Source: Procambarus clarkii (lineage: Eukaryota; Arthropoda; Malacostraca; Decapoda; Cambaridae). From it: a stretch of 64,000 nt of DNA. The position numbers were made by a program, and so were the translations under genes. Below the pieces are notes generated by a model, which saw nothing but the letters and a program-made list of their open reading frames with translations, was not told where the DNA came from and ran no database searches. This document shows, one piece after another, positions 2,881 through 59,298 of this stretch (within the stretch, counting starts at the first letter, position 1; each line of letters starts with the position of its first letter). The stretch spans positions 11,088,722 to 11,152,721 of the forward strand of contig NC_091214.1 of NCBI RefSeq assembly GCF_040958095.1, read 5' to 3'.

Positions 2881-3784
2881 AGTAGTAGGGATGGCTCCAC
2901 ACAGGTGATATTTTTTTTCAGGTCAAATATCCCGCGTGTGAGCCAGGGTTTTCAGGTAAATTTAGAATATCACCTGTGTGGAGCCATGGTTTTCAGGTTC
3001 CAATATCATCTGTGTGAGCCAGGGTTTTCAGGTAAATTTGTCAGTCACAGATTTTAGAAGTTGTTAAAGTTCTTATGGTGAAAATAATTTCCGAGACTTA
3101 GAAGTTTGTTAAGGCCTTATGGGAGAAATTCAAATAACGTGTGTAGCACTTTAGGGCTTCCAGGAGAACTCTACGGACATATTTTACATGTTTTCAACTT
3201 ACAAAATCGTTTATGTAAGCCTTAGTTATTCATATAAATTTAGAAAATCACCTGTGTAAGTCAGGGTTTTCAAGTCTCGTACATCACACCCCCCTCCCTC
3301 CCCCCTTACCTCGCAATCTGTCGCGTCACCTTTATTTACTTTGCGCCCAGCCAGCCAGTCGGCTCTTAATCTTATCTTATCTTATCCGTAATATCTGGAC
3401 CGTCCCTCCTCTCTCTCTCTCTCCCTCCTCTCTCTCTCTCCTCTTCATATTATTCCCTCTTCCTATTTTCGGACATACTATATTTTATTCCTTTTTCATT
3501 AACCAGTCAGTTTTATACAAATCAACCGAAGCATCTCAATGTAACCTTTAATACTGAAAACTGCCTCAGAGACTATCTAAGCTGGCCCCAGCTACCTTCC
3601 CCAGGCTATCTGCCCGAGGCAATCATCACCTGATTATCTGCCCCAGACATCTACCAGTCATTGTCGGCGTTCGCCACCGTAATAATTTATATATATATAT
3701 ATACATTAAGCGTTAATAAAACTTATTTATTTATTTATAATTTATTTAGTCATCTAATTCATAGTTTACACAATTTATAATAAA
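2881..3784 (+). repeat. Left terminal inverted repeat of Polinton copy 1
   Basis: About 904 bp, matching the reverse complement of 15552-16451 until the sequences part after ...CACAATTTATAATAAA. The outer 200 bp hold several copies of a subterminal motif, CCTGTGTGAGCCAGGGTTTT followed by CAGGT, near 2895, 2937, 2968 and 3008, with a weaker copy near 3252. Further in are a C-rich stretch, tandem CTTATC (GATA-like) motifs, a CT microsatellite and an AT microsatellite. No gene is visible. Confidence 0.93.
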
Positions 3785-3984
3785 CGACTCATTTAGCCCG
3801 AAGTTCTAAGAAGCTCGCTCCTCAATCCGCTTGTATAATATCCGTCCTATTCACTCTTCATCTCTGTAAATAAAGAATAACAGTTTCAGATAGCGTTTAC
3901 ACATGTACAATATCTATCAGACACATAAAACCTCGAAACAAATGTACTCACCATTTTCCGTTAGATAATTTGTTATAGCCTCAT
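3785..3984 (-). other. 3' untranslated stretch after the protease, with an 88-nt intron-like segment (3864-3951)
   Basis: Read on the minus strand, the sequence just past the protease stop has AATG|GTGAGTAC (donor, GT at 3951-3950) and 88 nt later a pyrimidine-rich TTATTTACAG acceptor ending at 3864. Both sites are close to consensus. Splicing here would not alter the protease. It would either remove a 3'-UTR intron or belong to a transcript whose coding part I do not recognise. A short frame overlapping the protease end continues across the junction for only a few codons, so I do not call a gene. Confidence 0.45.
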
Positions 3985-4542
3985 TCAGCCAGTCGTCTCC
4001 AAGCACATTTTCCAACAAATATCGCTCTTATCATAACACAGCGTTTCATAGCAGCTCGGCATATTTTTAAATAAAGCATAAGATAGCCTCATTACGTTCC
4101 TATCATTCTGCATATATTCTCCATAAGTAAAACTAGTTTCAAATAGCTTTATTGCAGTTTTTAGATCCTTGTTTGAAAGATGGTAACAGAAAAACATCGC
4201 ATATAGCCCGCATACGTAAGTATTTAAACTCTGAAGTCTCTCTGTAAACGTGTATACATCACAGTCTTTATAATAATTTAAAAACTCCGAAATATATGGC
4301 GAATACACATTTATTCCATATGAATCGAGTATAACTATTTTCCGTTTAGATTTATATACAGCAATCCAGTGACCCATTACTTCCTTAGAGTCCCTTCCTA
4401 AGGTATTTATTATAAACATAATCGGTCTGTCCCGTATTTGCTTCATTATTCTATATATATCCGTCGCTAAATAGCATCCAATATATTTAGCTTTACTACC
4501 TTTCATATCGTTCAATGCCGTATTAATTTGTTTGCAGTTCAT
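3985..4542 (-). CDS. Adenain-like cysteine protease (maturation protease)
   Basis: A 185-aa protein with the order of catalytic residues found in adenovirus protease and the Ulp1-like fold: GHW with His58, LDSYG with Asp73, Gln104 in ERLQ, and Cys111 in YVCGLYAMF. In Polintons and adenoviruses this enzyme cuts capsid and core precursors during virion maturation. A likely substrate is the neighbouring 131-aa protein, which has two sites of the adenain type. The ATG overlaps the stop of the major capsid gene as ATGA (4539-4542), so the two genes share a transcript or are translationally coupled. Length is typical for the family. Its counterpart in copy 2 lies beyond the window. Confidence 0.9.
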   Translation of the reverse strand: MNCKQINTALNDMKGSKAKYIGCYLATDIYRIMKQIRDRPIMFIINTLGRDSKEVMGHWIAVYKSKRKIVILDSYGINVYSPYISEFLNYYKDCDVYTFTERLQSLNTYVCGLYAMFFCYHLSNKDLKTAIKLFETSFTYGEYMQNDRNVMRLSYALFKNMPSCYETLCYDKSDICWKMCLETTG

Positions 4543-5891
4543 GCTCTTGTATCACACACAACTCGCCTATCGGAATAAATTCTCAATACTCCCGTTGTAA
4601 TTCCAAATAAAATAATAACTTTATTTGATTTCGCTGGAACAGCAAATTCTAATGTAATTCTCAGGTTGCCCGAAGCCTCTATAGGAAGGGTATCTCTCAA
4701 TTCCTCAGGCGTTAGTCTAAATGCCAGTAATGTTCTTCCTTTTATAAATGAATTATATGTCAAGGTATTGCAAGCATTAAAGCCTACTGTATTTTGAGTC
4801 TCGTAGTATAGTTTCGAACATTTATTCGGGAATTTGCAAGTTATATTAAATAAGTTTGTCCCATCACGTGTAATATATACATTAGATAAATCGCAGTGAT
4901 CGAAATAAAGTGGATTAAGTGTATACGCTCCTGATATTGCTTCCATATCCATCATCATAATAAATAATTTATCTGGGATAATGCTCCCCCATGGCTGGTC
5001 AATACTTAATCTCTGCTGCCCATTACCAAGAATGAACGTCTTGTGGAGTGTCTTATCAAACGTATATGTAACTGGCGTATTTTGTTCAGCCAGAGCTCTA
5101 TTAATAGCCTCCAATCCAGATGCAAATGGAGTTATCCGATCAATCCACATTCTAGCTAGTTTTATGTTAAACTTATATCCAGATTCAATACTGTTTATAA
5201 CCCACGGATCACTGTTAAGTTCTAATCTCAAACGAATATCAATTCCATCCAAAAGATATTCGCTCAAAGTTGTAATGTCCAATAGCAGTTTAAAGCAACA
5301 ATTTACTCCCTCAGTTTTTAACTTTACAAATCTAGATTTAAGGTCTTCTGAGGCATTCTTAAAATAATCTACATCATATTTTTCAGGGAAAACATCATTA
5401 TAGAAATACGTCAGTTCTTTAAATCTTTCAGCTTTACATTCAGAAAGCGTCGTCATTAGCTTTACATATGATAAATATGAAAATAGTGAATTAGTTTCCA
5501 CCACTTGCTCATTTAAATAAACAGTTACAGCTTTAAACATTGTCTGGGACAAACCATTGACTATTGATGCATTTTTAATATCCGCTAAAGCCGTAATTCC
5601 GTCAGGTCCCGTTAATTCAACCATCAGTTCTAGCGTCAAGCTCGAAAGATCAATAAATTGCCCCTTAACTCCCGGGATACGGAATTCAATATAAGAGTCT
5701 TTAAATTTATTGTTAATACTTGAATTCACAGGTAAAATATCCTGTGTCTGTCTTGAAAATATCGTACTTTCAACCATTCTATGCGGATTAACTTTAGGAA
5801 AGCCATCGCTTATAGCAGCTGTATAATTTTCTAAAGGAACTTGCAATGCTGCACTAGGAGCATTTACACTCATCATGTCCGCGTCTAGCAT
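4539..5891 (-). CDS. Major capsid protein (double jelly-roll, hexon-like)
   Basis: A 450-aa protein without membrane segments, rich in beta-strand-like alternation. It begins MLDADMMSVNAPSAA and near the end has FIKGRTLLAFRLTPEE (382-397) followed by GNLRITLEFA (408-417). This pairing of a G-[RY]-T-L-x-A-F-x-L-T-P segment and a G-N-L-R segment is characteristic of Polinton/adintovirus major capsid proteins. Position between the pVI/pX-like gene and the protease is the usual capsid block. The stop overlaps the protease start. Assignment rests on motif recall and gene order, and a structure search would settle it. Confidence 0.85.
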   Translation of the reverse strand: MLDADMMSVNAPSAALQVPLENYTAAISDGFPKVNPHRMVESTIFSRQTQDILPVNSSINNKFKDSYIEFRIPGVKGQFIDLSSLTLELMVELTGPDGITALADIKNASIVNGLSQTMFKAVTVYLNEQVVETNSLFSYLSYVKLMTTLSECKAERFKELTYFYNDVFPEKYDVDYFKNASEDLKSRFVKLKTEGVNCCFKLLLDITTLSEYLLDGIDIRLRLELNSDPWVINSIESGYKFNIKLARMWIDRITPFASGLEAINRALAEQNTPVTYTFDKTLHKTFILGNGQQRLSIDQPWGSIIPDKLFIMMMDMEAISGAYTLNPLYFDHCDLSNVYITRDGTNLFNITCKFPNKCSKLYYETQNTVGFNACNTLTYNSFIKGRTLLAFRLTPEELRDTLPIEASGNLRITLEFAVPAKSNKVIILFGITTGVLRIYSDRRVVCDTRA

Positions 5892-5906
5892 ACAACTAGT
5901 ACTGTT

Positions 5907-6302
5907 TTATGAAAACACGTCTTTATATCTATCCATTTTCGTTATATAGGCAGGTCTTTTCGTTTTTCTTTTCGTTATTCGGCCACCTGCTAACAATTTA
6001 GGACCTATACTTTTCAATGTTTCCATACCGCGTTTTCTAATTGAATCTTTCAAAGTACCTTGACCAGCATTTATATCCTGCAAAACATTCTGTCCCATTG
6101 TCAATGCAGCTGGCATAATAGTTTTTAATAGGAAAGGAGTTGCTCTACGAGCTAGACCAGTTAAGAAACTTAATATTCCACCACCTCTTAAATGTCTTCT
6201 ATCAAAAACAGTAATATCGCCCAGTGCTCCACCTCTCTTCCCTCGAGGAGCGATAAATCGCCCTACCTCGTCAACAGACAGCGGTACAAACCCGACCCTC
6301 AT
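5907..6302 (-). CDS. pVI/pX-like small core or membrane-active protein
   Basis: A 131-aa basic protein from the ATG at 6302; an upstream TTG at 6317 gives five more residues but is unlikely in a eukaryotic element. In the numbering that includes those five residues, a glycine-rich HLRGGG (42-47) precedes an amphipathic stretch (ILSFLTGLARRATPFLLK), then a segment like TMGQNVLQDI and a very basic tail. Two sites fit the adenain cleavage rule (M/I/L)-x-G-G|x: LRGG|G at 43-47 and LAGG|R at 109-113. Such proteins sit beside the major capsid gene in Polintons and resemble adenovirus pVI/pX, which are cut by the viral protease. The gene begins 47 nt after the penton stop and ends 15 nt before the MCP start. 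Confidence 0.75.
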   Translation of the reverse strand: MRVGFVPLSVDEVGRFIAPRGKRGGALGDITVFDRRHLRGGGILSFLTGLARRATPFLLKTIMPAALTMGQNVLQDINAGQGTLKDSIRKRGMETLKSIGPKLLAGGRITKRKTKRPAYITKMDRYKDVFS

Positions 6303-6349
6303 GTTTAAACAGGCCAAGAGAGAATGATAAACTCCCTCTACTCATGCCA

Positions 6350-7255
6350 TTATATATCAACGGGTCTAATATGTAATACAGCAATCGTACATCCATCCTT
6401 TTCAAAATATACAGGCTCCCCATCTTGATCTGTTAATCTAATACTGATGCCATCAATATTAGTCGTATTTAAAGGTTTATATAATTTCCTGTGTGTTACA
6501 TTACTTTGAAACGAAACAACATCCAAGATATTTACAATCTGATTACCAAACATGGTGGGCTGCACCTTATCACAATATACACACAAGAAATCTATACGGC
6601 CTCCTGGCCTAGGATGATAATAGCAAGTATCTTGTACAAATAACCTGTTATTAGGTGGCTTATTCATAATAAAAATATCATAGGCTTTACCTACTTCAGC
6701 TCCAATAACTTTACATATATTTCGACCGAAAGATAAAGAAATTCGAACAACTAATTTTCCATCCTTTGTAATAAATAATTTTAACAACTTCTCACTAAAT
6801 GCTGCATTAAACTTAATTCGATTAATACTCGAATCATATTTCATATAAACGTCCCCATGATCTGGGAAATTATAATTAAGTACGGGTCCTATAAAACTCA
6901 GTGAACCTTTTGAAAATATAGTAGAAATTTCTCTATTTAAAATAGTCGTTAGCTCTATGCAATTATCACTGGCTAAAATATCCGACTTTAAATTGAAAGA
7001 TGTATTCACCGTACTCAAATCAGATAAACTTTTATTAGACACTAGAAGTTGAACTGAAATAAAACTTTCCGGGTCATTCCCCCTAACAGCGAAATAAGAT
7101 GGAGGCAGGAATATATTCTTCAGGCACACTTCATAAGCTTTATTCGGGTCTAAAGGCAGCTGATTATGTAATCTATTTTCAAAAGCATTGGGAGCATTGT
7201 TTTTAAATACATCAGTATCAGAGTTACTCGCTGCATATATAACGTAACTATCCAT
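6350..7255 (-). CDS. Penton-like minor capsid protein (single jelly-roll)
   Basis: A 301-aa protein. Its N-terminal half has LPLDPNKAYEVCLKNIFLPP (33-52) and its C-terminal half CVYCDKVQPTMFGNQI (225-240) and VLHIRP near the end. The order 'L..kyeVaL..i..P', 'vyCD.v.p...G....iLdvV', 'Y.pl....i..I.i...d..g..v.F' and 'LHIRP' is the pattern I know from Polinton/adintovirus penton proteins, which occupy capsid vertices. It is separated from the upstream 150-aa gene only by a 42-nt intron-like sequence whose acceptor lies 2 nt before the ATG. No membrane segment or signal peptide is seen. Confidence 0.82.
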   Translation of the reverse strand: MDSYVIYAASNSDTDVFKNNAPNAFENRLHNQLPLDPNKAYEVCLKNIFLPPSYFAVRGNDPESFISVQLLVSNKSLSDLSTVNTSFNLKSDILASDNCIELTTILNREISTIFSKGSLSFIGPVLNYNFPDHGDVYMKYDSSINRIKFNAAFSEKLLKLFITKDGKLVVRISLSFGRNICKVIGAEVGKAYDIFIMNKPPNNRLFVQDTCYYHPRPGGRIDFLCVYCDKVQPTMFGNQIVNILDVVSFQSNVTHRKLYKPLNTTNIDGISIRLTDQDGEPVYFEKDGCTIAVLHIRPVDI

Positions 7256-7256
7256 C

Positions 7257-7298
7257 CTGTAGACTAATAGTAAATGATAAAAATAAACAGAAACTCAC
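7257..7298 (-). other. 42-nt intron-like spacer between p150 and penton
   Basis: On the minus strand the p150 stop reads TAAG|GTGAGTTTC and the spacer ends ATTAGTCTACAG|GATGG, where ATG is the penton start. Donor and acceptor are both near consensus and a TACTATT branch-like element lies just upstream. The same sequence occurs in copy 2 (62429-62470). At 42 nt it is very short for an animal intron, so the sites may instead serve separately, the acceptor for penton mRNA and the donor for an upstream leader. Confidence 0.5.
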
Positions 7299-7299
7299 C

Positions 7300-7752
7300 T
7301 TAATATGATATCCAGGTAGACTCTCCTTCATCTACAGCCTTGATCTTCCTCTTCAAACTTGGAGGAGAAAACACTTGATTTTTCGCATCTACATTTCTAA
7401 ATAAATTCTTAGGTGTAGATGTCAAAGAGTAGAACAACTTTGCAATTGGCAGTTTATCTTCTGGGAATAACAATTTCGGAGTGCACATCCTGCCTATAAC
7501 GTCATCAACAATATTGAGCCCCGTAACTGGCGATGTAATGTTCCCTTCCTCATCCCACTTTACAAGTCCAGTTGTATTAAAATAATTTAACAAGGAGACA
7601 GCAAAATCATAATCCTTAAGCTTTAATCTTAAGTCTATCAAGTGTTGTATAACAGGATTTGTTCTCACTGTCATCGTAGGCTTCTCAACACTTACTGCCG
7701 TAGGCTTCTGTTGATCAATAGCTTTTCGTGGTACAAGATAGAATTCTTTCAT
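7300..7752 (-). CDS. KEFYLVP-motif capsid-associated protein (p150)
   Basis: A 150-aa protein starting MKEFYLVPRKA. A middle segment WDEEGNI...GLNIVDDVIGRM (66-89) and a later LTSTPKNLFRN (110-120) match the pattern of a conserved Polinton protein that starts with K-x-[FY]-x-L-V-P and has W-x-x-x-G-x-I...SNI-x-D-L and L-x-x-x-P-x-x-L-x-x-N blocks. Its function is not established. The C-terminus has a basic SLKRKIK stretch that could act as a nuclear signal. The ATG overlaps the stop of p113 by one base (TAATG). Confidence 0.7.
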   Translation of the reverse strand: MKEFYLVPRKAIDQQKPTAVSVEKPTMTVRTNPVIQHLIDLRLKLKDYDFAVSLLNYFNTTGLVKWDEEGNITSPVTGLNIVDDVIGRMCTPKLLFPEDKLPIAKLFYSLTSTPKNLFRNVDAKNQVFSPPSLKRKIKAVDEGESTWISY

Positions 7753-8093
7753 TATTCCTTATTAAATAGCCTTGAAATGAAATTTATAGCTATGGGAAGT
7801 AAAATGCCCAATAAATTACCTCCTCTTTTACTTGTTAATATGTCTTTCTTGAGTGAAATAGCTTTCTTCTTACAGGCTAATGTATGGAGTAGAGCTCTAT
7901 ATTTAGAAAGTCTCTTTAAAATAGGCTTCCCAACTTCAATTTTATTTTTTAAGAAATTATTAAATATTTCTGATAAGCAAAGTATATGTTCCTTTTTAAG
8001 AGTCTTAATTAACTTTTTCCTAGAATTATAACCTAATCTAGCTAATAGTTCAATAAATCCACGATACTTGCTAACTAAGGGCTGCTTCTTCAT
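7752..8093 (-). CDS. Conserved small basic Polinton protein with hydrophobic tail (p113)
   Basis: A 113-aa lysine-rich protein. It has an ILCLSEIFNNFLKNKI segment (37-52), a KRLSKYRALLHTLACKKKAI segment (60-79), then KRGGNLLGILLPIAINFI (89-106). Many animal Polintons encode a protein with this order: a helical 'L.E...N.L.g...l' part, a basic 'K.Kr.r..lr.La' part and a 'GG.L..ll.P' hydrophobic end. The role is unknown; a core or membrane-contact function is possible. Its ATG overlaps the integrase stop as ATGA (8090-8093). Confidence 0.72.
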   Translation of the reverse strand: MKKQPLVSKYRGFIELLARLGYNSRKKLIKTLKKEHILCLSEIFNNFLKNKIEVGKPILKRLSKYRALLHTLACKKKAISLKKDILTSKRGGNLLGILLPIAINFISRLFNKE

Positions 8094-9202
8094 AGTTTCT
8101 TCACGTCATCTGAATTCACCCACTGATCAAATGAACTGTCGTAACCGACGTATCTAACTTTATATAAAGTAGTATTACCAACTTTACGTTTACTTATAAT
8201 TCTCTCAATTTCAAATGTATCTGACAAGTAGGTGGGAGTCAACTCCTCTCTATAAAATCCGCCTTCTATAAGTCTATTATTTAAGTCCTTTAGATAATAT
8301 AAAGGCACGGGTTGTTTAGTATCAGTTTGAGCAATTGTAAATATTTCCTTAGTGTTCTGTTGATGAAAACCTCTTTTGAACTTTGAAATACGATTAGATA
8401 AGGCAAGCCGTACTGTATCTCCTACAGACAGATGATTACTGATGCGTGGCTTAGTCTGCTGCTCTCCTTTATACATGAGCTTAAACTGCCTAGTCACATC
8501 TCGAGGCAAAGATAAAGCATGTACATCAATAGGTATTTTCCCCTTTAATCCTCTATGTGGTGTTCTATTATACGTTTTAACCATATCAGGTAAAACATTT
8601 ATATAGGTTAAGGTGTTATAAGCCGTTAAATATTTATATATCTTAGTTTTCAATGTTCTTATAAATCTCTCTGCAATGCTGGCTTTAGTTTCCTGAGAAA
8701 ATACACTGTACAGATCAATGTTTTTACTGTCTAACAATCGTTTCATATATTTATTATAGAATTCACCGCCCTTATCAGTGTTAAGCTTCCTTACACCTTT
8801 TGATGAAGGTAAGTCCAGAACAGCTTTCATGGCTTCACTTACACTCTGACCTGATTTAGTGGATAGTGGAACTACATGTGCAAACCTTGAAAATATATCA
8901 ACACAAACTAATAAATATTTAATATCATTGTTGTGCTTAGCTAACAATGTCATATCAGCCAAGTCACTGGTAAAGGAAGCTTTAGGTCTAGGTGCTAAGA
9001 TACGTCTTCGTTTAAATTTACGTTTTTTTAATAGATGTAAGGTATAAGCATTAGACGTTTTTAAATAGTCTTTCACATCTTTTATAGTTATTTCAGGGAT
9101 TGTTTTCTTTGCAGCCTTATACAATTTTAAAACGCCACCAAACCCACCTATGGACTTGGGGTCATTGTATATCTTATTAAGAGCTTGTGTAATGTTCACC
9201 AT
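8090..9202 (-). CDS. Retroviral-type DDE integrase with C-terminal chromodomain
   Basis: A 370-aa integrase. The catalytic core shows SDLADM (79-84, first Asp), VCVDIFSRFAHVVPL, NTDKGGEF with Asp143, and AERFIRTLK with Glu178, a D-D-x34-E spacing. A basic linker KKRKFKRRR precedes the core. The last 40 residues, with LYKVRYVGYDSSFDQWV, form a chromodomain-like module that may guide target choice. A clear HHCC zinc module is not seen at the N-terminus. The enzyme would join element ends to host DNA and produce the 6-bp duplication observed. The start overlaps the end of the ATPase gene by 7 nt. Confidence 0.94.
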   Translation of the reverse strand: MVNITQALNKIYNDPKSIGGFGGVLKLYKAAKKTIPEITIKDVKDYLKTSNAYTLHLLKKRKFKRRRILAPRPKASFTSDLADMTLLAKHNNDIKYLLVCVDIFSRFAHVVPLSTKSGQSVSEAMKAVLDLPSSKGVRKLNTDKGGEFYNKYMKRLLDSKNIDLYSVFSQETKASIAERFIRTLKTKIYKYLTAYNTLTYINVLPDMVKTYNRTPHRGLKGKIPIDVHALSLPRDVTRQFKLMYKGEQQTKPRISNHLSVGDTVRLALSNRISKFKRGFHQQNTKEIFTIAQTDTKQPVPLYYLKDLNNRLIEGGFYREELTPTYLSDTFEIERIISKRKVGNTTLYKVRYVGYDSSFDQWVNSDDVKKL

Positions 9203-9852
9203 TGATACACTATTTCATATGGGGGTTCATTTACAATATTTCCCCTAAATATTATGGATTCAGGTGTTTTAACGCCCAAGTCAACAAGTAAATACCCATA
9301 CTGTCGAGAAATCACTTTCTTATATATATCTAAAAATTTCTTGGCATCTTGTTTTCCGAATATTTGTCTGCCTAATGTTTCTATCTGGGACAAGTCTCTT
9401 GATTTAAGCAGAATAAAATGAGAAGCATTTAAACTTATAGATCTAGAAAATTTCCCACTGAAAAATATATTTTGGGTTATAAAAATAACAGAGATGTTCT
9501 CATGCCGTCCCTTAGTAAATATATCACTTACTATTTTAGAGTTTGTAGATTCAACATACAAGTCATCATAAACAACTAATATATGAGATGTGTCCTCTGG
9601 ATCACGATCATCTAACGGGTTTACAATTTCAGAGTAAAAAGATATCTTATGTTTAAAGAGTGGATTAGTTCTCAACTCTTTATACCCGCTTCCACAGATA
9701 ATTATTTTTGCAAAGTTCTGCTGATATTTCTCTATCATTTTAGCACATAAATAGCTCTTCCCACCATTTGAAAATCCAGCAATAATAATTCTTGACGGCT
9801 CACTAAATATATTCAACTGGGATTCAGTAATAACTTTTTTCTGCCCTTCCAT
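9196..9852 (-). CDS. FtsK/HerA-type DNA-packaging ATPase (A32-like)
   Basis: A 218-aa protein from the ATG at 9852; a TTG 15 nt upstream extends the frame but is not a likely start. Walker A is GFSNGGKS (26-33), Walker B is ILVVYDDLY, and ENISVIFITQNIFF supplies the usual sensor-like segment after Walker B. This is the short A32-like ATPase that pumps DNA into capsids of Polintons and related viruses. It is the first gene of the late-type cluster. The 77 nt between it and the repeat spacer contain TTTAAATA and ATTATATATTT, possible TATA-like elements. Confidence 0.9.
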   Translation of the reverse strand: MEGQKKVITESQLNIFSEPSRIIIAGFSNGGKSYLCAKMIEKYQQNFAKIIICGSGYKELRTNPLFKHKISFYSEIVNPLDDRDPEDTSHILVVYDDLYVESTNSKIVSDIFTKGRHENISVIFITQNIFFSGKFSRSISLNASHFILLKSRDLSQIETLGRQIFGKQDAKKFLDIYKKVISRQYGYLLVDLGVKTPESIIFRGNIVNEPPYEIVYQW

Positions 9853-9924
9853 GTTGCTAGGATTCAATAGACTAACTACAAATATATAATGAAAGGAGTA
9901 TTTAAACGAAATCTACATTCAAGT

Positions 9925-9930
9925 TTTATT
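9925..9930 (-). terminator. Putative polyadenylation signal (AATAAA) for PolB
   Basis: AATAAA on the minus strand at the far end of the AT-rich spacer. It is conserved at the same place in copy 2 (59796-59801) and lies just upstream of the ATPase leader. Confidence 0.45.
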
Positions 9931-10688
9931 TAAACATAACCAATAAAATCATAGTAATAACATATCCAATACAGTAATAAAATCATAGAATATACATTAT
10001 TATAGACATTTGAATCATAGTCATAACATATCCAATACAGTAATAAAATCATAGAATATACAATATCATAGCCAATAAAATCATAGTCATAACATATCCA
10101 ATACAGTAATAAAATCATAGAATATACAATATCATAGCCAATAAAATCATAGTCATAACATATCCAATACAGTAATAAAATCATAGAATATACATTATTA
10201 TAGACATTTGAATCATAGTCATTTCATATCCAATACAGTAATAAAATCATAGAATATACAATATCATAGCCAATAAAATCATAGTCATTTCATATCCAAT
10301 ACAGTAATAAAATCATAGAATATACAATATCACAGCCAATAAAATCATAGAATATACAATATCACAGCCAATAAAATCATAACATATCCAATACAGTAAT
10401 AAAATCATAGAATATACATTATTATAGACATTTGAATCATAGTCATAACATATCCAATACAGTAATAAATAAATCAGTCTTAAAATAGCAATTTGAACAT
10501 ATCAAATGCAGTAATAAAATCATAGAATATATATTATCATAGACATTAAAACATAGTCATAACATATCCAATACAGTAACAAATCTTAGTCATTTTCATA
10601 TCCAATACAGTAACAAATCATAGCCAATACAATATCATAGACATTTGAATATAGTTATAGATAATACATAGACAATACAGTAACAGAC
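9931..10688. repeat. AT-rich tandem-repeat spacer between PolB and ATPase
   Basis: Irregular tandem units of roughly 60 bp built from CATAACATATCCAATACAG, TAATAAAATCATAGAATATA and ACAATATCATAGCC blocks, about 12 partial units. It starts at the PolB stop and ends at the AATAAA. A frame through part of it (9930-10184) is only a repeat artefact. Copy 2 has the same motifs but fewer and more degraded units (about 490 bp), so the spacer has changed size since the copies split. Confidence 0.9.
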
Positions 10689-13600
10689 TTAGTTGTTGTT
10701 AGGGAATAATTGCTGAGCGACTCTATCCCGCTTTTCCCAAAGATTAAAAATGGGGAACAATTGACGTCTTGGTTGGGGATTATCTACAATTACTGGATCC
10801 CCTACCTGCGCCTCTTCCTCTACCTGTACCTCTTCCTGTACCTCTTCCTCTACCTGTACCTGTACCTCACGCTCTGGAATGTCTGGGTGACCGTAAGCTA
10901 ATGACTCTGTGGGACTAATGAGGTACCTCTTGTCATCAAAAGCTGACAGACCGCGCTTAGTTGTTTTACACGTGCATATCTGTCCATTAACATTACGAAT
11001 GGATCGGGATACAAAATTAAAAGTTGTATTTGTCTCTAATGTGTTCTGAAAAGATGCATGTGTTATTTTCTTTTGTTGGTGATAAGGAATCCCTTTACAT
11101 TTACATAAATGTTCATTATCAAGGGTTAGGAGAGAGTAAGTTTTAGGCTTGAGTGCAATTAATTCAGTTATGATTTTCTGCTTTACTTCTGACTTGAGGA
11201 GTCCTAGTTCACCTTTGCGAGTAGCAGAATACATGGGATGATCTTTGTCAAAATTACTGAAATCCATATAATCTACTAGAGGAGCTTTTGTCATTTCTTG
11301 GAAAGCATCTTTACAGGTCAGAGTAAATATAAATGAGTCTGTATCCGTATAAATTAGTCTAGCTCTCTCCCCATAATGGGCTTTAACTACATTATACCAG
11401 AACTCGTATAAACGCCTCTTGGCTATCTGCAAGATCTGATAACCCATGTAAGAAGGAGTGGTAACTTTAAGGATGTCTTTCATTACTGTACAGAGAACCC
11501 TATCTTGACCTAAAGAGACAGCTCGTTTATACAAAGGGTTTCTTGCATGAGTTAAGAATGAATGTTTTGTCGTTACTAGATGGTGAGTATTAGCATATCG
11601 AGATATATTTGTCATTGATTTCCCGTACAGACTATTACTTATGAGTTTAAAAGCTTTTCCTTTAACTTTACAGGTGGTATTGGCTCGTTCTCGAATGTTG
11701 GTTGAAATAAAATCTTTTAAATAGGGAGCCTGATTAAATTCATAGATTGTTTTTACTCGTTCAACTTCTAGTCCAAGTTTTAATAGCAATTGCAGGAAAT
11801 CAAGGCTTACTAAGTAGTCGTTTTGGGGCAAGTGGGATGCAATTAACTTAGTATTTTTAGGTGGGAGCTTACGTTTTTCATCATTAAGGGTTTTCTTACT
11901 GTACTCTGACAAAAACTCCTCCGTTATATTAGTATGAGACAGTACAAGGGGCAGATCATCAGTATACCTAGCTACCTCGGGAGATACATGTTTTGTATCG
12001 CATAAAATCCAATAACCTTTGTCTTGATTACAGGGGATATGTTGTAACCCTTGCCCTAATAAGGTATCCCGCTCAAGGTCAGTTAATTGTCTAATCCCTC
12101 CCTGGGGAAGTACCTCAGCCATGCACGCTGCATATAAGCTGTTAAAGTCGAGGTACAAAATGTGAGTATCGTCATCAGAGCTAGGGTTAGATGTAGTGTG
12201 CTCGTTAACAGCCTGTGTAAATTGTCTAATGGAAGATGTGAACCCTCCTCTAAGATTCCTTCTCAACAAATCATATATATTCTGATCATACACATAGTCA
12301 AGTACAACTTTTGATTTAAATAAGAAAGCGTCCCAAGCATAACTAGGAAGTGATACATAGAAAACAATATCTAGTTCATAAATTTCTTTCAGTGATGTTC
12401 GCCAAAGTGTAAATATATCAACTAGCATTCCCACGTCGACTTTTAAATATAACATGAGGTAATCCTTGATGTTTGTACAGTTCCCTAAATTAAATACTTT
12501 AAGAGCATTGTTATAATCTTCTTCAGACAGTGGAGAGTCATGTAAAACATTGTAAAACTTATCTCGCGAAGGGAGCTGAGGTTCGTCTAACACGTCCATG
12601 GAAGAAATATAATCATAACATAGGCTTTGTTTACCTTTAATTAACAGAGCTTTAGCTTCATCGGATACGCCATTTAGTATGTGTTCAGTGTACTTGGTGG
12701 GTTTCTTACCGGCAACGTGCTCGCTTGCTAAGGTTCCTAATGACCCATTTAGGAGAGCTAGGCTATCTAGGAATTTAAGTTTACCTATGATGACTTGCAT
12801 AAATTTCAATCCTTCCTTGGTTAGAATTTCTACATCGCGGTGAGGATTTTTGGACAGTTCTTTAAGTATAATTCCAAGATCATAGGCAGCATTATGGGAA
12901 AATGTAGTCAAGTATCTACGAGCATTTTTACATTGTAAATTGCAACGAGCACAATAAGCACCTAAGTAATTATTTTCCTGAATAGCATGATTATGATGTC
13001 TATGTTTATCTTTCTTATCCTTGAAAGTTTGATGACACAATTGACACGTATTTTGTCTTTGAAACATTCTTTCCTGTTCTCTAGACAAGTTCTTAGGGAA
13101 GTTGGGGAGCTGAGCATGAATAGCTTTCCATGAGGCTTCTAGCTTTGTAATAAAATGATTGACCGCATCTGGACCTACGTATGAATACGTTTCTACGACA
13201 TTGAATTCCCTGTCTAAAATCATGTAAGCATAAGCAATTGCTTTATGCTTACATTCCACCATGCCTCTAGGATTTTGACGGTCTAATAGACATTCAAAAT
13301 CGTAATAGGCGGTGTGAGTTGGGCTATAGGTCCTACCGTAATTTTTAAAACTGATTTTATCACTAGGATTATAGAACGAAAATACTTGGGATACAGTGCA
13401 TGACTCTTCGTGAGCCTGAATTTCGTCTAAGGGAGCATGCAAAAGGCAAATTTTACAGAATTTATGAGTGTTAGGAATCCTTCCAGAATGGTGGTTAATA
13501 CTCTTTACAAATTTATCAAAGTCCTTGATCAGACAGAGATGCTTGCCTTCTAATAACAACAAAGGGACTTTATCGGCATACTTTTCCTGGCTTTTCCTAG

Positions 13601-15357
13601 CTAAACTAAGATAGTATCTGTTACTTTCATGAGTTATTGTATAAATATAAATAGAAATTTTGTTAAGCTTCTCTATTTTCTTAAGGTTATCAAATGATAC
13701 GGGGAATCTGATTTCATCTGCCCATACTACGAATCTTCTACACCATCGAAGGTTTTTGTAATACTTTCTAACGTTATTCATAGTCCTGCCCAATGCTAAG
13801 TTTTTATACGCCGCAATGCACTGTAACAAACACTCATCTCCTTCACTTTCAGGATTAAATACTGTTTCTTTACCCCTTAATTTTGCAGGATATGGTACGT
13901 AAGATCCAAGGCGCATAGGGTGGCGAATATATGAAAAATTAATGGCAAAGCCTGACATGGAATGAATTCCTACACTTGAGGATTGGACATTTTTTAGGCA
14001 TTCGTCAATTTTAGCAGACATTTCGTCAACCCATGAATTTACGAGAACTTCCACCTCTTCCTGTGTAACAATCTGAGTTTCGCCTCTAATTGAAAATACT
14101 TCGTCTAATATTTCATATTGATCGTCGGCATGATTAAGTTTTTGCAAAATTAGGCTTACATCAGGGTAAATGTGAAATGAGGGAGGGAATTCTTCCTGTA
14201 TTTGTCTGAACTGATTGTCTATATATTCTATAAAAAATTCCCTATACCTATTTATATATAAGCTGGGGTCAGCGTCTAAATGACCGGGAATGGAGAACGA
14301 ATGTCTCGAGAATGATCCTTCGAAATGGTTAATGACTTCTAACACTCGCGGAACAACGTTATCTAAGTTAAGTACCTCTGGGGAATCTGGAGCGTTGACT
14401 TCTTCATCTGATATGTCGTGAACAGGGGGTTGATTGTCTTCTTCTTCTTCATCTGAGGATGCCTGCTGGTTGCCGTCTGGTTCATCTTCTTCTAGCTCCT
14501 GGGACAGCTGGGGCTGACTGCGTACAGGCGTGCTCCACTCAGAGGGTTGGGTTGAATCCAGGGGAGATTCTGTAATATAATATTAGCAATGAAATAAACA
14601 TTAAGAGGAAAACAAATTTGAAAACAATAAGAGGATTTGAAAACCTTAATAGGAAAATATGGTGTAAATAAGAGGAATTATTATTAAGAGGAAAAACAAA
14701 AAGTTTAAATAAGAGGAAAAACTGAATTACAGATAAATAATAATATTACTTACGAGCTGGGATGTTGATTCCACCAAGTATGAGATTCTCTTGATCACGA
14801 ATAGGAACTCCTGTAATGGAAATATTTTTCTGTATGAGTACTTATTACTTGTTTATACACTTGATAAATATACAATTATTAACTTTAAAAATTATGAAAA
14901 TTATTGTGAAAACGTACGGTTATTTATGATGCGACGGCGTTTGGGTGGAGGTTCAATGACGTTTCTGGCTTCGGTGGGAGGTTCCCGGTTAACGGAGAAA
15001 CGACAGTATGGGCAGGAAGTAGAACCATGAACTGAAATGAAAATAATATATATAAATTGACTGTCTGTATGTATGTATGTATGTGTGTTTCGGATATATA
15101 TTTTCTTTGAAAGTTTATTGAATGTGCGAGAAAAAGCGATACTTACGATTTGCACAATAGAGTTGTCCACAGCTGGTACAGGTTACGTCAAAATGTCCAG
15201 GCGGTGTAGGCCCGTTGCATCCTATACAGTATAGTCTGCATTCTTGAAGAGCGTTGATGGACATTTCACCTAGGCATGTTAAACATCGTGTTTGACACAC
15301 ATGAACGATTTCGTTGTTGATAGGAGACAGGCACAGAGGACACACTGACACTGACAT
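10689..15357 (-). CDS. Protein-primed DNA polymerase B with spliced Cys-rich N-terminus
   Basis: Four exons on the minus strand: 15147-15357, 14918-15031, 14754-14810 and 10689-14569, giving 1420 aa. Every junction is GT-AG with good consensus and all introns are phase 1. Exons 1-2 encode five Cys pairs (CPLC, CQTRCLTC, CRLYCIGC, CTSCGQLYC, CPYC), a RING- or zinc-ribbon-like domain. Exon 2 ends in a basic KRRR patch and the start of exon 4 is very acidic. Residues ~374-472 (ECLLQC...GKHLCLIKDF) match the OTU-like segment common in Polinton PolB, followed by a Cys2-His-Cys finger (FCKIC...HEESC). The exonuclease motifs are YYDFE (~549-553), HNAAYD (~686-691) and YLKVD (~835-839). The polymerase motifs are DFNSLYA (~935), KLISNSLYG (~1102) and YTDTDS (~1201-1206). 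The C-terminus has EVQ-rich repeats. It copies the element using a protein primer. Confidence 0.93.
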
Positions 15358-15551
15358 GATGATATGACTAGGCTAGGGGAACCTTGTGAACAGGATGAAG
15401 ATTGAATGTTGACTGAAAGTGTGGGCCTCTGAGACTTTGGCGATCTGAGGGGGCCCCTGAATGAGCGTAATAATGATAGTGTGCCCCTGAGTGAGCGTTT
15501 GGCTGTTTTATTAATAGCGAGAATGATTGGCGAATACTGGGAATAAATTCT
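15358..15551 (-). promoter_or_regulatory. PolB upstream leader/promoter region
   Basis: A 194-bp unique stretch between the right inverted repeat and the PolB ATG, conserved in copy 2 (54446-54639). It has a TCAGT initiator-like motif about 55 nt before the ATG and repeated CTCACTCAGGGG/CTCATTCAGGGG blocks. No clear TATA box is at the expected spacing. The promoter role is inferred from position. Confidence 0.4.
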
Positions 15552-16451
15552 TTTATTATAAATTGTGTAAACTATGAATTAGATGACTAAATAAATTATA
15601 AATAAATAAATAAGTTTTATTAACGCTTAATGTATATATATATAAATTATTACGGTGGCGAACGCCGACAATGACTGGTAGATGTCTGGGGCAGATAATC
15701 AGGTGATGATTGCCTCGGGCAGATAGCCTGGGGAAGGTAGCTGGGGCCAGCTTAGATAGTCTCTGAGGCAGTTTTCAGTATTAAAGGTTACATTGAGATG
15801 CTTCGGTTGATTTGTATAAAACTGACTGGTTAATGAAAAAGGAATAAAATATAGTATGTCCGAAAATAGGAAGAGGGAATAATATGAAGAGGAGAGAGAG
15901 AGAGGAGGGAGAGAGAGAGAGAGGAGGGACGGTCCAGATATTACGGATAAGATAAGATAAGATTAAGAGCCGACTGGCTGGCTGGGCGCAAAGTAAATAA
16001 AGGTGACGCGACAGATTGCGAGGTAAGGGGGGAGGGAGGGGGGTGTGATGTACGAGACTTGAAAACCCTGACTTACACAGGTGATTTTCTAAATTTATAT
16101 GAATAACTAAGGCTTACATAGACGATTTTGTAAGTTGAAAACATGTAAAATATGTCCGTAGAGTTCTCCTGGAAGCCCTAAAGTGCTACACACGTTATTT
16201 GAATTTCTCCCATAAGGCCTTAACAAACTTCTAAGTCTCGGAAATTATTTTCACCATAAGAACTTTAACAACTTCTAAAATCTGTGACTGACAAATTTAC
16301 CTGAAAACCCTGGCTCACACAGATGATATTGGAACCTGAAAACCATGGCTCCACACAGGTGATATTCTAAATTTACCTGAAAACCCTGGCTCACACGCGG
16401 GATATTTGACCTGAAAAAAAATATCACCTGTGTGGAGCCATCCCTACTACT
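15552..16451 (-). repeat. Right terminal inverted repeat of Polinton copy 1
   Basis: 900 bp, the reverse complement of 2881-3784 with only scattered differences and small changes in the AT and CT microsatellites. It ends ...GGGATATTTGACCTG, a short A-tract, TATCACCTGTGTGGAGCC and CTACTACT. It is followed directly by the GAGGTT target duplicate (16452-16457). Confidence 0.93.
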
Positions 16452-23745: not shown

Positions 23746-23783
23746 GGTGTGTTAAGTGCTAGTTAAGTGTTCCGTCTGTGACA

Positions 23784-25775
23784 ATGGCAGAAAAAGCTAC
23801 CATCGATGATCTGGACGATGTTCAGGCTTTTCTGAACAGAGAGGACTGTCTTGCCAGATTAAAATATCTGAGCAAACCGGAACTTGTACTAGTGAGCGCC
23901 TACCTGGAGATCAAGATCCATGCCAGTGATTCCCGTGTGGAGATCTTGTCCAAGGTTCACCGGCATTTGAAGGCAGAAGAGAAACAGGAAGGCGAGACTC
24001 CTAGTATAAAGGAAGGTGAGAAAATAGCTTCCACTGAACAGGAAGGTAAGAGCAGTGAAGTCGAAAGTGATGAGAGTGAACTAAATATAAGTGTGCTTAC
24101 TGTGAAAATGCGTGAACTAGAGATCCATCGAGAAATAGAATGGAAAAAGCTAGAGATCGCTATAGAGAGAGAAGAGGAAGCGAGAAAGAGAGTAGATAAG
24201 AAATTAGAAATGGAAAGAGAAAGACAAGAAATGGAAAGAGAGAGATTGAGAAAAGAATTAGAGATACGACGTTTAGAATTAGAACGAGAAGAAAGAAGAG
24301 AAGAGTGAGAAAGAGAAGAAAAACGAGAAAGAGAAGAGAAACAAAGAGAAGAGCGAGAAAGAGAAGAGAAACGAGAAAGAGAACAGCGAGAGAGAGAAGA
24401 AAACGAAAGACAGACACAACATGAACTAGAAGTATTACGATTAGGCGGTGGTCGGAGGCAAACAACGGACACCAGCAGTTTCGATCCGGTAAGGAACATC
24501 AAAATGGTCCCAAAATTCAACGAGAGGGAAGTTTCGAAGTTCTTCGCAGCCTTCGAGAAAGTCGCTGCCTCTTTGGAGTGGCCAAGGGAGAATTGGGCCA
24601 TCATGATACAGTCAGTCTTGACTGGGAAGGCCCAAATCGCCTACTCCACGTTATCCCTTGACGACTCCGGCGATTACGACAGGGTGAAGAAAGTGGTGCT
24701 CATGGCGTACCAATTGGTACCTGAGGCGTACAGGCAAAAGTTCAGAAACCTGAAGAAGACCTCAGAGCACACGTTCACCGAATTCGCCACAATCAAGGAG
24801 CGACTTTTTCAGGAATGGTGTGCCTCTCGGAAGGTGGAGACCAAAGAAGACCTCGAGCAGCTCATACTGCTAGAGGACTTCAAAGACTGTCTGTCTGGAG
24901 ACCTGAAGACGTACTTAGAGGAGCAGCAGGTAGAGACCTTGAGTGCGGCAGCCACCATGGCTGAGGAATACATCCTGACGCATAGGCCTTCTGCTAAGTA
25001 CGTCCCAAGGCATTACCAACGCCGGTTTGACAAACCTCAGGACGAAGAAGAGACCCCCGTCCCACGAAGCGCTAAGAAGACGCCCCCAAGTAGCCCTCGA
25101 AGGAAAAGTCCTAGCAGTCCGAAACACCGGAGTCCGAGGAGGAATGTGGTGAGCTGGACCTGTGGGCAGAAAGGGCATGTAGCTGCTATGTGCCGAGGCA
25201 GAAGAGGTGGCAGCGCACGTAGGGAGGTGATGATGATGAGCTGTGTGATACCACCAGCAGGAAGCCAGTCGACGACGACGCAGGAAGGATCAAGTTTGGT
25301 CGCCCCTCACACTTCAAGCGGGTATGTAACGAGTGATCATACTGGTAGATCTGTAGTAGTGCTCAGAGATAGTGGAGCAGCCCAGTCCCTGATCGTGAGA
25401 AGCTCGTTACCCGAGGGAGTAAGTGTGGACGGGAGACAACAGGTTGTCCTCGTTGGGTTTCCAAGGACGCAGTACATCGCCCCCTTAGTGCCAGTACATC
25501 TCGACTCGCCTTATTTCAGCGGCACATGTGCGTTGGCAGTAGTCGATACCCTGCCTGTAGCTGGGATTGACGTGGTACTAGCCAACGACTTGGTATCGGA
25601 TTGGAGCACCAATCATCCCAAGATTGCGGACGAGTCGGCCAGAACAGCAAGGTCTGAGGTAACGACAGGCAGTGGTAATGTCCAGGTAAAGACAGACCCG
25701 GATTTAGGTATGTTTAATCCTTCCTCTCGCCTACAGATTGACGACAGAGTCTACGGTCTTCTAGCAGTCTCCTGA
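23784..25775 (+). pseudogene. gag: gag with protease-like end, interrupted by one in-frame TGA
   Basis: From ATG 23784 the frame has a short globular N-terminus (MAEKATIDDLDDVQAFL), then a long E/R-rich coiled coil. A TGA at 24306-24308 interrupts it and the same frame continues open to 25775. The second part has a SCAN/capsid-like segment (FNEREVSKFFAAFEKVAASL), an SR/P-rich linker, a zinc-knuckle relic (WTCGQKGHVAAMC) in which the first Cys of the CCHC pattern is Ser, and an aspartic protease-like VVLRDSGAAQSLI. A CGA-to-TGA change would explain the stop, because the surrounding coiled coil is full of CGA codons. The gene would make a capsid polyprotein if the stop were read through. Confidence 0.8.
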
Positions 25776-25806
25776 TTCTTCTCCCAACGAGGAACATGAG
25801 GTTACG

Positions 25807-54639: not shown

Positions 54640-57600
54640 ATGTCAGTGTGTCCTCTGTGCCTGTCTCCTATCAACAACGAAATCGTTCATGTGTGTCAAA
54701 CACGATGTTTAACATGCCTAGGTGAAATGTCCATCAACGCTCTTCAAGAATGCAGACTGTACTGTATAGGATGCAATGGGCCTACACCGCCTGGACATTT
54801 TGACGTAACCTGTACCAGCTGTGGACAACTCTATTGTGCAAATCGTAAGTACCGCTTTTTCTCGCACATTCAATAAACTTTCAAAGAAAATATATATCCG
54901 AAACACACATACATACATACATACAGACAGTCAATTTATATATATTATTTTCATTTCAGTTCATGGTTCTACTTCCTGCCCATACTGTCGTTTCTCCGTT
55001 AACCGGGAACCTCCCACCGAAGCCAGAAACGTCATTGAACCTCCACCCAAGCGCCGTCGCATCATAAATAACCGTACGTTTTCACAATAATTTTCGTAAT
55101 TTTAAAAGTTATTAATTGTATATTTTAACAAGTGTATAAACAAGTAATAAGTACTCATACAAAAAAATATTTCCATTCCAGGAGTTCCTATTCGTGATCA
55201 AGAGAATCTCATACTTGGTGGAATCAACATCCCAGCTCGTAAGTAATATTATTATTTATCTGTAATTCAGTTTTTCCTTTTATTTAGACTTTTTGCTTTC
55301 CCTTTTAATAATTCCTCTTATTTACACAATATTTTCCATTAAGGTTTTCAAATCCTCTTATTGTTTTCAAATTTGTTTTCCTCTTAATGTTTATTCATTG
55401 CTAATATTATATTACAGAATCTCCCCTGGATTCAACCCAACCCTCTGAGTGGAGCACACCTGTACGCAGTCAACCCCAGCTGTCCCAGGAGCTAGAAGAA
55501 GATGCACCAGACGGCAACCAGCAGGCATCCTCAGATGAAGAAGAAGAAGACAATCAACCCCCTGTTCACGACATATCAGATGAAGAAGTCAACGCTCCAG
55601 ATTCCCCAGAGGTACTTAACTTAGATAACGTTGTTCCACAAGTGTTAGAAGTCATTAACCATTTCGAAGGAGCATTCTCGAGACATTCGTTCTCCATTCC
55701 CGGACATTTAGACGCTGACCCCAGCGTATATATAAATAGGTATAGGGAATTTTTTATAGAATATATAGACAATCAGTTCAGACAAATACAGGAAGAATTC
55801 CCTCCCTCATTTCACATTTACCCTGATGTAAGCCTAATTTTGCAAAAACTTAATCATGCCGACGATCAATATGAAATATTAGATGAAGTATTTTCAATTA
55901 GAGGCGAAACTCAGACTATTACACAGGAAGAGGTAGAAGTTCTTGTAAATTCATGGGTTGACGAAATGTCTGCTAAAATTGACGAATGCCTAAAAAATGT
56001 CCAATCCTCAAGTGTAGGAATTCATTCCATGTCAGGCTTTGCCATTAATTTTTCTTATATTCGCCACCCTATGCACCTTGGATCTTACGTTCCATATCCT
56101 GCGAAATTAAGGGGTAAAGAATCAGTATTTAATCCTGAAAGTGAAGGAGATGAGTGTTTGTTACAGTGCATTGCCGCATATAAAAACTTAGCATTGGGCA
56201 GGACTATGAATAACGTTAGGCATCATTACAAAAACCTTCGATGGTGTAGAAGATTCGTAGTATGGGCAGATGAAATCAGATTCCCCGTATCATTTGATAA
56301 TCTTAAGAAAATAGAGAAGCTTAACAAAATTTCTATTTATATTTATACAGTAACTCATGAAAGTAACAGATACTATCTTAGTTTAGCTAGGAAAAGCCAG
56401 GAAAAGTATGTCGATAAAGTTCCTTTGTTGTTATTAGAAGGCAAGCATCTCTGTCTGATCAAGGACTTTGATAAATTTGTAAAGAGTATTAACCACCATT
56501 CTGGAAGGATTCCTAACACTCATAAATTCTGTAAAATTTGCCTTTTGCATGCTCCCTTAGATGAAATTCAGGCTCACGAAGAGTCATGCACTGTATCCCA
56601 AGTATTTTCGTTCTATAATCCTAGTGATAAAATCAGTTTTAAAAATTACGGTAGGACCTATAGCCCAACTCACACCGCCTATTACGATTTTGAATGTCTA
56701 TTAGACCGTCAAAATCCTAGAGGCATGGTGGAATGTAAGCATAAAGCAATTGCTTATGCTTACATGATTTTAGACAGGGAATTCAATGTCGTAGAAACGT
56801 ATTCATACGTAGGCCCAGACGCGGTCAATCATTTTATTACCAAGCTAGAAGCCTCATGGAAAGCTATTCATGCTCAGCTCCCCAACTTCCCTAAGAACTT
56901 GTCCAGAGAACAGGAAAGAATGTTTCAAAGACAAAATACGTGTCAATTGTGTCATCAAACTTTCAAGGATAAGAAAGATAAACATAGACATCATAATCAT
57001 GCTATTCAGGAAAATAATTACTTAGGGGCTTATTGTGCTCGTTGCAATTTACAATGTAAAAATGCTCGTAGATACTTGACCACATTTTCCCATAATGCTG
57101 CCTATGATCTTGGAATTATACTTAAAGAACTGTCCAAAAATCCTCACCGCGATGTAGAAATTCTAACCAAGGAAGGATTGAAATTTATGCAAGTCATCAT
57201 AGGTAAACTTAAATTCCTAGATAGCCTAGCTCTCCTTAATGGGTCATTAGGAACCTTAGCAAGCGAGCACGTTGCCAGTAAGAAAGCCACCAAGTACACT
57301 GAACACATACTAAATGGCGTATCCGATGAAGCTAAAACTCTGTTAATTAAAGGTAAACAAAGCCTATGTTATGATTATATTTCTTCCATGGACGTGTTAG
57401 ACGAACCTCAGCTCCCATCGCGAGATAAGTTTTACAATGTTTTACATGATGCTCCACTGTCTGAAGAAGATTATAACAATGCTCTTAAAGTATTTAATTT
57501 AGGGAACTGTACAAACATCAAGGATTATCTCATGTTATATTTAAAAGTTGACGTAGGAATGCTAGTTGATATATTTACACTTTGGCGAACATCACTGAAA

Positions 57601-59298
57601 GAAATTTATGAACTAGATATTGTTTTCTATGTATCACTTCCTTGTTACGCTTGGGACGCGTTCTTATTTAAATCAAAAGTTGTACTTGACTATGTGTATG
57701 ATCAGAATATATATGATTTGTTGAGAAGGAATCTTAGAGGAGGGTTCACATCTTCCATTAGACAATTTACACAGGCTGTTAACGAGCACACTACATCTAA
57801 CCCTAGCTCTGATGACGATACTCACATTTTGTACCTCGACTTTAACAGCTTATATGCAGCGTGCATGGCTGAGGTACTTCCCCAGGGAGGGATTAGACAA
57901 TTAACTGACCTTGAGCGGGATACCTTATTAGGGCAAGGGTTACAACATATCCCCTGTAATCAAGACAAAGGTTATTGGATTTTATGCGATACAAAACATG
58001 TATCTCCCGAGGTAGCCAGGTATACTGATGATCTGCCCCTTGTACTGTCTCATACTAATATAACGGAGGAGTTTTTGTCAGAGTACAGTAAGAAAACCCT
58101 TAATGATGAAAAACGTAAGCTCCCACCTAAAAATACTAAGTTAATTGCATCCCACTTGCCCCAAAACGACTACTTAGTAAGCCTTGATTTCCTGCAATTG
58201 CTATTAAAACTTGGACTAGAAGTTGAACGAGTAAAAACAATCTATGAATTTAATCAGGCTCCCTATTTAAAAGATTTTATTTCAACCAACATTCGAGAAC
58301 GAGCCAATACCACCTGTAAAGTTAAAGGAAAAGCTTTTAAACTCATAAGTAATAGTCTGTACGGGAAATCAATGACAAATATATCTCGATATGCTAATAC
58401 TCACCATCTAGTAACGACAAAACATTCATTCTTAACTCATGCAAGAAACCCTTTGTATAAACGAGCTGTCTCTTTAGGTCAAGATAGGGTTCTCTGTACA
58501 GTAATGAAAGACATCCTTAAAGTTACCACTCCTTCTTACATGGGTTATCAGATCTTGCAGATAGCCAAGAGGCGTTTATACGAGTTCTGGTATAATGTAG
58601 TTAAAGTCCATTATGGGGAGAGAGCTAGACTAATTTATACGGATACAGACTCATTTATATTTACTCTGACCTGTAAAGATGCTTTCCAAGAAATGACAAA
58701 AGCTCCTCTAGTAGATTATATGGATTTCAGTAATTTTGACAAAGATCATCCCATGTATTCTGCTACTCGCAAAGGTGAACTAGGACTCCTCAAGTCAGAA
58801 GTAAAGCAGAAAATCATAACTGAATTAATTGCACTCAAGCCTAAAACTTACTCTCTCCTAACCCTTGATAATGAACATTTATGTAAATGTAAAGGGATTC
58901 CTTATCACCAACAAAAGAAAATAACACATGCATCTTTTCAGAACACATTAGAGACAAATACAACTTTTAATTTTGTATCCCGATCTATTCGTAATGTTAA
59001 TGGACAGATATGCACGTGTAAAACAACTAAGCGCGGTCTGTCAGCTTTTGATGACAAGAGGTACCTCATTAGTCCCACAGAGTCATTAGCTTACGGTCAC
59101 CCAGACATTCCAGAGCGTGAGGTACAGGTACAGGTAGAGGAAGAGGTACAGGAAGAGGTACAGGTAGAGGAAGAGGCGCAGGTAGGGGATCCAGTAATTG
59201 TAGATAATCCCCAACCAAGACGTCAATTGTTCCCCATTTTTAATCTTTGGGAAAAGCGGGATAGAGTCGCTCAGCAATTATTCCCTAACAACAACTAA
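54640..59298 (+). CDS. Protein-primed DNA polymerase B with spliced Cys-rich N-terminus, copy 2
   Basis: Exons 54640-54844, 54960-55073, 55182-55238 and 55418-59298 join in phase to 1418 aa. The sites are the same as in copy 1: donors GTAAGT, GTACGT, GTAAGT and acceptors TTTCAG, TTCCAG, TTACAG. The start is MSVCPLC, two residues shorter than copy 1, where a 6-bp GTCAGT-like duplication adds Ser-Val. All exonuclease and polymerase motifs are kept, including DFE, HNAAYD, DFNSLYA, NSLYG and YTDTDS. Differences from copy 1 are scattered single substitutions. The intact splice sites and reading frame in both copies support the exon model. Confidence 0.92.

Follow-up and report, generated by a model that had tools for sequence, protein, structure and literature searches.

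Evidence for a spliced, cysteine-rich head on the protein-primed DNA polymerase of Polintons in Procambarus clarkii

INTRODUCTION

How the polymerase of a Polinton starts, and how it arrives in the nucleus, are largely open questions. A 64,000-nt stretch of the Procambarus clarkii genome assembly (4.03 Gb in all), hereafter the window, carries one complete Polinton (copy A) and part of a second (copy B). The initial annotation of this DNA proposed that the frame of the protein-primed DNA polymerase (PolB) is reached from an ATG through three short upstream exons, which would give the polymerase a Cys-rich N-terminal head. Here, we ask whether these exons belong to PolB, which other Polintons of this genome share the head, and what it may do.

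RESULTS

Exon–intron structure of PolB

In copy A the gene lies on the minus strand. Exon 1 (15147..15357, 211 nt) contains the start codon and 11 Cys and ends in phase 1 after ...LYCAN. Intron 1 (15032..15146, minus strand; GTAAGT...CAG, acceptor CATTTCAG, phase 1) separates it from exon 2 (14918..15031, minus strand, 114 nt), which encodes the last CxxC pair (CPYC) and the basic motif PPPKRRRII. Then follow intron 2 (14811..14917, minus strand; GTACGT...CAG, acceptor CATTACAG, phase 1), exon 3 (14754..14810, minus strand, 57 nt), which encodes a short linker, intron 3 (14570..14753, minus strand; GTAAGT...CAG, acceptor ATATTACAG, phase 1) and exon 4 (10689..14569, minus strand), with an acidic linker, a terminal-protein-like domain, a vOTU-like domain and the PolB motifs. 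The corresponding exons of copy B were found on the plus strand at 54640..54844 (exon 1, 6 nt shorter than in copy A and in frame), 54960..55073 (exon 2), 55182..55238 (exon 3) and 55418..59298 (exon 4, PolB). The initial annotation had placed the three GT-AG, phase-1 junctions at the correct coordinates, and they are supported by the 59 further genomic copies described below. It had also counted both copies as support; the junctions are indeed present in each, but this agreement is weak evidence because copies A and B are 97% identical (1119/1152 columns).

Exons 1–3 sum to 382 nt and would encode about 127 residues; the length of ~106 residues first given for the head matches exons 1 and 2 alone. 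Its five CxxC pairs and the basic patch in exon 2 are present as described, and 13 Cys were counted (11 in exon 1 and 2 in exon 2). The exon-4 frame opens a mere 13 nt ahead of its acceptor boundary, within intron 3. No Met occurs in it before residue 183 (of 1292), which lies within the terminal-protein-like domain. Because the frame is barely open upstream and this Met falls inside a domain, PolB needs upstream exons, as had been proposed.

Conservation of the exons among genomic copies

When the genome was searched with the exon-1 protein, 150 of 935 first-look candidates were scored; all 150 scored places matched, 149 of them without a stop. From the other 149 matches we took 59 (57 distinct rows), chosen by exon-1 similarity, for an alignment of the unspliced stretch. 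Two incomplete copies are counted in the totals: L036 is without most of intron 3 and of the exon-4 stretch, and L049 is without most of the exon-4 stretch. Across these 59 copies, 348 of the 354 splice dinucleotides were conserved. Donor GT was retained in 57/59, 57/59 and 58/59 copies for introns 1, 2 and 3, and acceptor AG in 59/59, 59/59 and 58/59, respectively.

The introns carried 283 indels (73 in intron 2 and 138 in intron 3), and just 15 of the 283 were divisible by 3. Exon 2 had none and exon 3 had one. In exon 1 there were 71. Of these, 54 were divisible by 3, and all but one of the remaining 17 formed pairs within a single copy, each pair summing to 3 or 6. For exon 4, 43 were counted in the first 600 nt, including 12 not divisible by 3. 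Distinct changes were then sorted into synonymous and nonsynonymous ones, with p-values that assume these changes to be independent. The ratio was 36:27 in exon 1 (p 1.4e-7), a value biased by the use of exon 1 as the selection criterion, and 69:93 in exon 4 (p 1.5e-7). For exon 2 it was 13:17, which is weakly significant (p 0.035), with 5:25 and 8:22 in the other frames, and for exon 3 it was 5:7 (p 0.19), which is not significant and leaves the frames indistinguishable. Exons 1, 2 and 4 are under coding constraint. At the protein level, all 13 Cys were conserved in the 59 copies, save for Cys28, which was changed in one copy; PPPKRRRII was exact in 55/59 copies of this window family, and the exon-3 peptide was identical in 49/59, with a stop in one.

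In a search based on exon 4, in which exon 1 was not used, 128 of 150 matches had a scored exon-1 match 467–650 nt upstream, and the remaining 22 had none among the matches listed. In light of these data, we regard exons 1–3 as almost certainly real exons of PolB.

The head in other Polinton families

The NCBI P. clarkii protein model P0003, whose PolB is ~50% identical to that of the window, starts with MANSRRVCVITCPQC...CANRYNPEACPFC, a related head that the model joins to PolB. When the genome was searched for 49 residues of this head, 150 scored matches at E<=10 were obtained. The P0003-like loci that were read have an in-frame ATG 29 codons ahead of the NCBI start, adding C-x2-C...H-x-C-x3-C-x2-C.

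The linkage in P0003 bears on another gene structure, in which exons 1–3 form a short protein of their own (e.g. from the 80-codon unspliced exon-1 frame that begins at the ATG) and PolB uses another first exon. Such a structure would suit the exon-1 frame of the window, which remains open into intron 1, as well as the NCBI model of the window-type PolB, P0001 (contig C92), which starts at an internal Met and does not use the head. P0001 is likely a truncated gene model, as it is without most of the terminal-protein-like domain. Moreover, the open frame around exon 1 has no fixed length (83 to 223 codons in the 150 scored exon-1 matches), yet the donor GT, the exon-2 frame and the tight spacing of 467–650 nt to exon 4 are conserved. 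Together with P0003, this makes a separate short protein highly improbable.

In a third family (L079 and L080), only the second half of the head is present. In L080 it is followed by a PolB with 54% identity to the window PolB over residues 71–974 and 63% over 969–1181, and for L079 no PolB was found within the 3 kb read. Among the 20 loci L061–L080, PolB similarity was detected in 17, and the adjoining stretch added one more, L080. Frameshifts affected the first half of exon 1 in L065, L066 and L068–L070, and the exon-1 pattern was not found in L071 and L075. Intron 1 was compared in eight loci, of which L077 failed the pattern; in the other seven it starts at the same residue and in the same phase, and its acceptor AG is conserved in six, being absent from L073. 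Three Polinton families share the head, and in them intron 1 has the same position. Chance GT-AG signals were considered as the source of the junctions, and were ruled out by conservation in the 59 copies and across the three families.

An alignment of 17 exon-1 peptides (that of the window and 16 of 42 distinct ones) showed C25, C28, C40, C44, C47, G54, C60, C63 and C68 to be invariant. C6, C9, H19 and C21 were absent from both aligned sequences of the family labelled X, and L072 and L076 each lacked one of these four. A search with the family-X head matched at 150/150 scored places in the genome, with 94–100% identity. In six family-X loci with 1.5 kb flanks (L083–L088), PolB similarity lay at the stretch edge in two and was not seen in four, flanks of this length being too short to decide. 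One family-X head exon, at G000:C415:52166-52324, sits in an open frame of 3337 codons, perhaps made of tandem repeats.

Beyond this genome, IMG/VR scans found no relatives. Two word-based protein searches were also made: P0003 residues 1–60 matched only P0003 itself, and the exon-1 alignment gave nothing at E<=1 among 13 candidates. The Cherax and Macrobrachium models may be without true first exons, so these negatives do not bound the head to P. clarkii.

The head and the RING fold

The initial annotation suggested a RING-like fold and a ubiquitin-ligase activity. Read in this way, the polymerase would carry a fused E3 ubiquitin ligase domain of the RING (or IBR) type, which would act with the vOTU-like domain in ubiquitin control. 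The spacing in exon 1, C-x2-C-x9-H-x-C-x3-C-x2-C-x15-C-x2-C, falls within the limits of RING spacing if H and C are swapped at ligands 3 and 4, and weak, sub-threshold matches were obtained to IBR_1 (five of the 17 members, E 0.018 at best) and to a Pex12 RING chain (E 0.027). In the unswapped sequence, H precedes C at ligands 3 and 4, the reverse of the RING order, and the closest reading is C2-H-C5 in place of C3HC4. The head gave no match that was significant or above a curated cut-off in Pfam, NCBIfam or PDB, including any RING profile of Pfam or NCBIfam; the best sub-threshold match was Zf_IFT144_1st in exon 2 (E 0.0054). In addition, C6, C9, H19 and C21, which would be the first four ligands, are those missing from both family-X sequences and, singly, from L072 and L076. 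The fold predicted for exon 1 alone had a pLDDT (predicted local distance difference test) of 55, too low to interpret with regard to a RING cross-brace. VIA-align re-aligns Foldseek matches alone, so families absent from it are not thereby excluded. On balance, a RING-type ligase appears quite unlikely.

Domains of PolB downstream of the head

The exon-4 protein comprises the terminal-protein-like domain (residues 68–217), the vOTU-like domain (225–349), in which the catalytic Cys246 and His343 of a vOTU are present, and the polymerase, with the motifs DFNSLY, NSLYGKS and YTDTDS at residues 807, 978 and 1073. The window PolB matched a PHROG DNA polymerase with E 4.2e-17. PF03175 was not reported for it in the Pfam search, and is carried by the relatives P0002, P0012, P0021 and P0023.

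Two further features were observed within PolB. After the vOTU-like domain, C-x2-C-x11-H-x3-C (13398-13457, minus strand, residues 371–390) is invariant in 8/8 PolBs and may be another zinc site. A weak Endonuclease VII-like match was found at 12921-13079 (minus strand, residues ~497–549; E 0.16), with a stronger one in P0021 (2.4e-6).

The element and its surroundings

Copy A occupies 2881..16451 (13571 bp; no strand assigned) and is complete, with terminal inverted repeats (TIRs) of ~900 nt (904 aligned columns, 99.4% identity) and an exact 6-bp target duplication, GAGGTT, at 2875-2880 and 16452-16457. Long TIRs and a 6-bp duplication are those of a Polinton/Maverick, as are two of its genes, encoding an A32-like packaging ATPase (9199..9912, minus strand; Pfam Pox_A32, E 3.3e-8) and an rve integrase with a C-terminal chromodomain (8093..9214, minus strand; Pfam rve 7.1e-9, Chromo 4.4e-6). 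A possible Ulp1/adenain-like protease (3988..4551, minus strand) has a weak Peptidase_C48 match under the Pfam cut-off (E 0.038). The jelly-roll capsid candidates (4542-5906, 5910-6341, 6353-7294 and 7303-7758) matched nothing in PHROG and no Pfam family above its cut-off, and a PDB sequence search with two of these four open reading frames (ORFs) gave weak, unrelated matches only. Copy B is inverted, begins at ~53.5 kb and continues beyond the window edge, and is hence partial.

Copy A is inserted within a long minisatellite with a 16-bp unit (GGAGGGTGGCAGTAGT-like), which was seen from window position 1 and in 16440-18000 (part read), with 919 register copies of a 300-nt reference across the window. 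Elsewhere, a SCAN-domain ORF (24309-25772, plus strand; Pfam E 4.6e-15) is flanked by two long ORFs without a Pfam match (23763-24305 and 25765-27096), perhaps parts of another mobile element.

DISCUSSION

We consider it the best explanation, with a probability of about 0.6 for the whole, that the protein-primed PolB is a four-exon gene whose zinc-binding, nuclear- or DNA-targeting head is kept with the terminal protein. Exons 1–3 would encode a Cys-rich, presumably zinc-binding module, followed by a nuclear-localisation-like motif and a linker, all joined to the acidic linker, the terminal-protein-like domain, the vOTU-like protease domain and the polymerase. Zinc binding is suggested because the CxxC pairs are conserved, and PPPKRRRII resembles a nuclear localisation signal. 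The head may help the polymerase or terminal protein to enter the nucleus or to reach DNA or partner proteins. Cleavage between the terminal protein and vOTU is favoured from plasmid data and has been proposed for polintons, according to excerpts of PMC11071308. If the crayfish vOTU-like domain cuts there, the terminal protein would still bear the head while bound to the 5ʹ ends of the element's DNA. Judged from sequence, the likeliest role is that of a metal-binding head that carries a nuclear-localisation-like motif, precedes the terminal-protein-like domain and probably stays on the genome ends. Splicing of PolB would imply the nucleus, and nuclear transcription of the gene is plausible.

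One finding weighs against this explanation: exon 2 of the P0003-like family is without the basic patch, and PPPKRRRII is therefore not general to all families. The same absence speaks against another role, in which the head is a sequence-specific, origin-recognition-like DNA-binding module for the terminal repeats and not an aid to nuclear targeting. Cys-rich zinc modules often bind DNA, and the head adjoins a terminal-protein-like domain, which must act at the ends; no DNA-binding zinc family matched above cut-off, and we hold this role to be rather unlikely. Returning to the four-exon gene with a targeting head, we tentatively speculate that its spliced, metal-binding and nuclear-targeting head is an address label of the genome-linked terminal protein, staying with it on the ends of the Polinton DNA after vOTU cleavage and there steering nuclear entry or integration.

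The head ties PolB expression in P. clarkii to splicing, and its small size lends it to direct tests of metal binding and targeting. With its exon 1 matched at 150/150 scored places in each of two families, it also indicates that gene models can miss the true N-terminus of PolB, as in P0001, which starts inside the terminal-protein-like domain.

Among known systems, the terminal protein precursor of adenoviruses is genome-linked and has roles in nuclear localisation and anchoring, as a separate protein; we know of no such Cys-rich head on it. The RING and IBR domains of Pfam resemble the head in having a number of CxxC pairs, spaced in exon 1 roughly as in a RING, and differ in that the head has no match above cut-off and that its ligand order and cross-family conservation do not fit. 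A close counterpart is the protein-primed PolB (pPolB) of Polintons and adintoviruses, with its terminal-protein (D1) and vOTU (D2) domains (PMC11071308, PMC11071296, in excerpt); the crayfish protein has terminal-protein-like, vOTU-like and PolB domains in the same order, and the invariant vOTU Cys and His. The elements themselves are alike in their chromodomain integrase, A32 ATPase, long TIRs and 6-bp duplication; the crayfish PolB differs in the extra spliced Cys-rich head before the terminal-protein-like domain. The excerpted text of PMC11071308, which places Polintons at the root of several eukaryotic virus groups, makes no mention of zinc, ring or intron, and none of the titles and abstract openings surveyed describes a Cys-rich head on Polinton PolB, although we do not claim that it is unpublished. 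Zinc-finger and Zn-ribbon genes of adintoviruses, virophages and polintons (PMC11071296, PMC3671162) likewise supply presumed zinc modules in related elements, but the excerpts of these papers do not present them as belonging to PolB. Lastly, the OmPLV helicase-pPolB fusion of Oxyrrhis marina (PMC12721341, in excerpt) is also a pPolB with a gained domain; there it is a helicase in a protist element, whereas in the crayfish, a crustacean, spliced exons supply a small Cys-rich head. As a kind, N-terminal additions to pPolB have precedents, and the crayfish head is a new one as far as our searches show.
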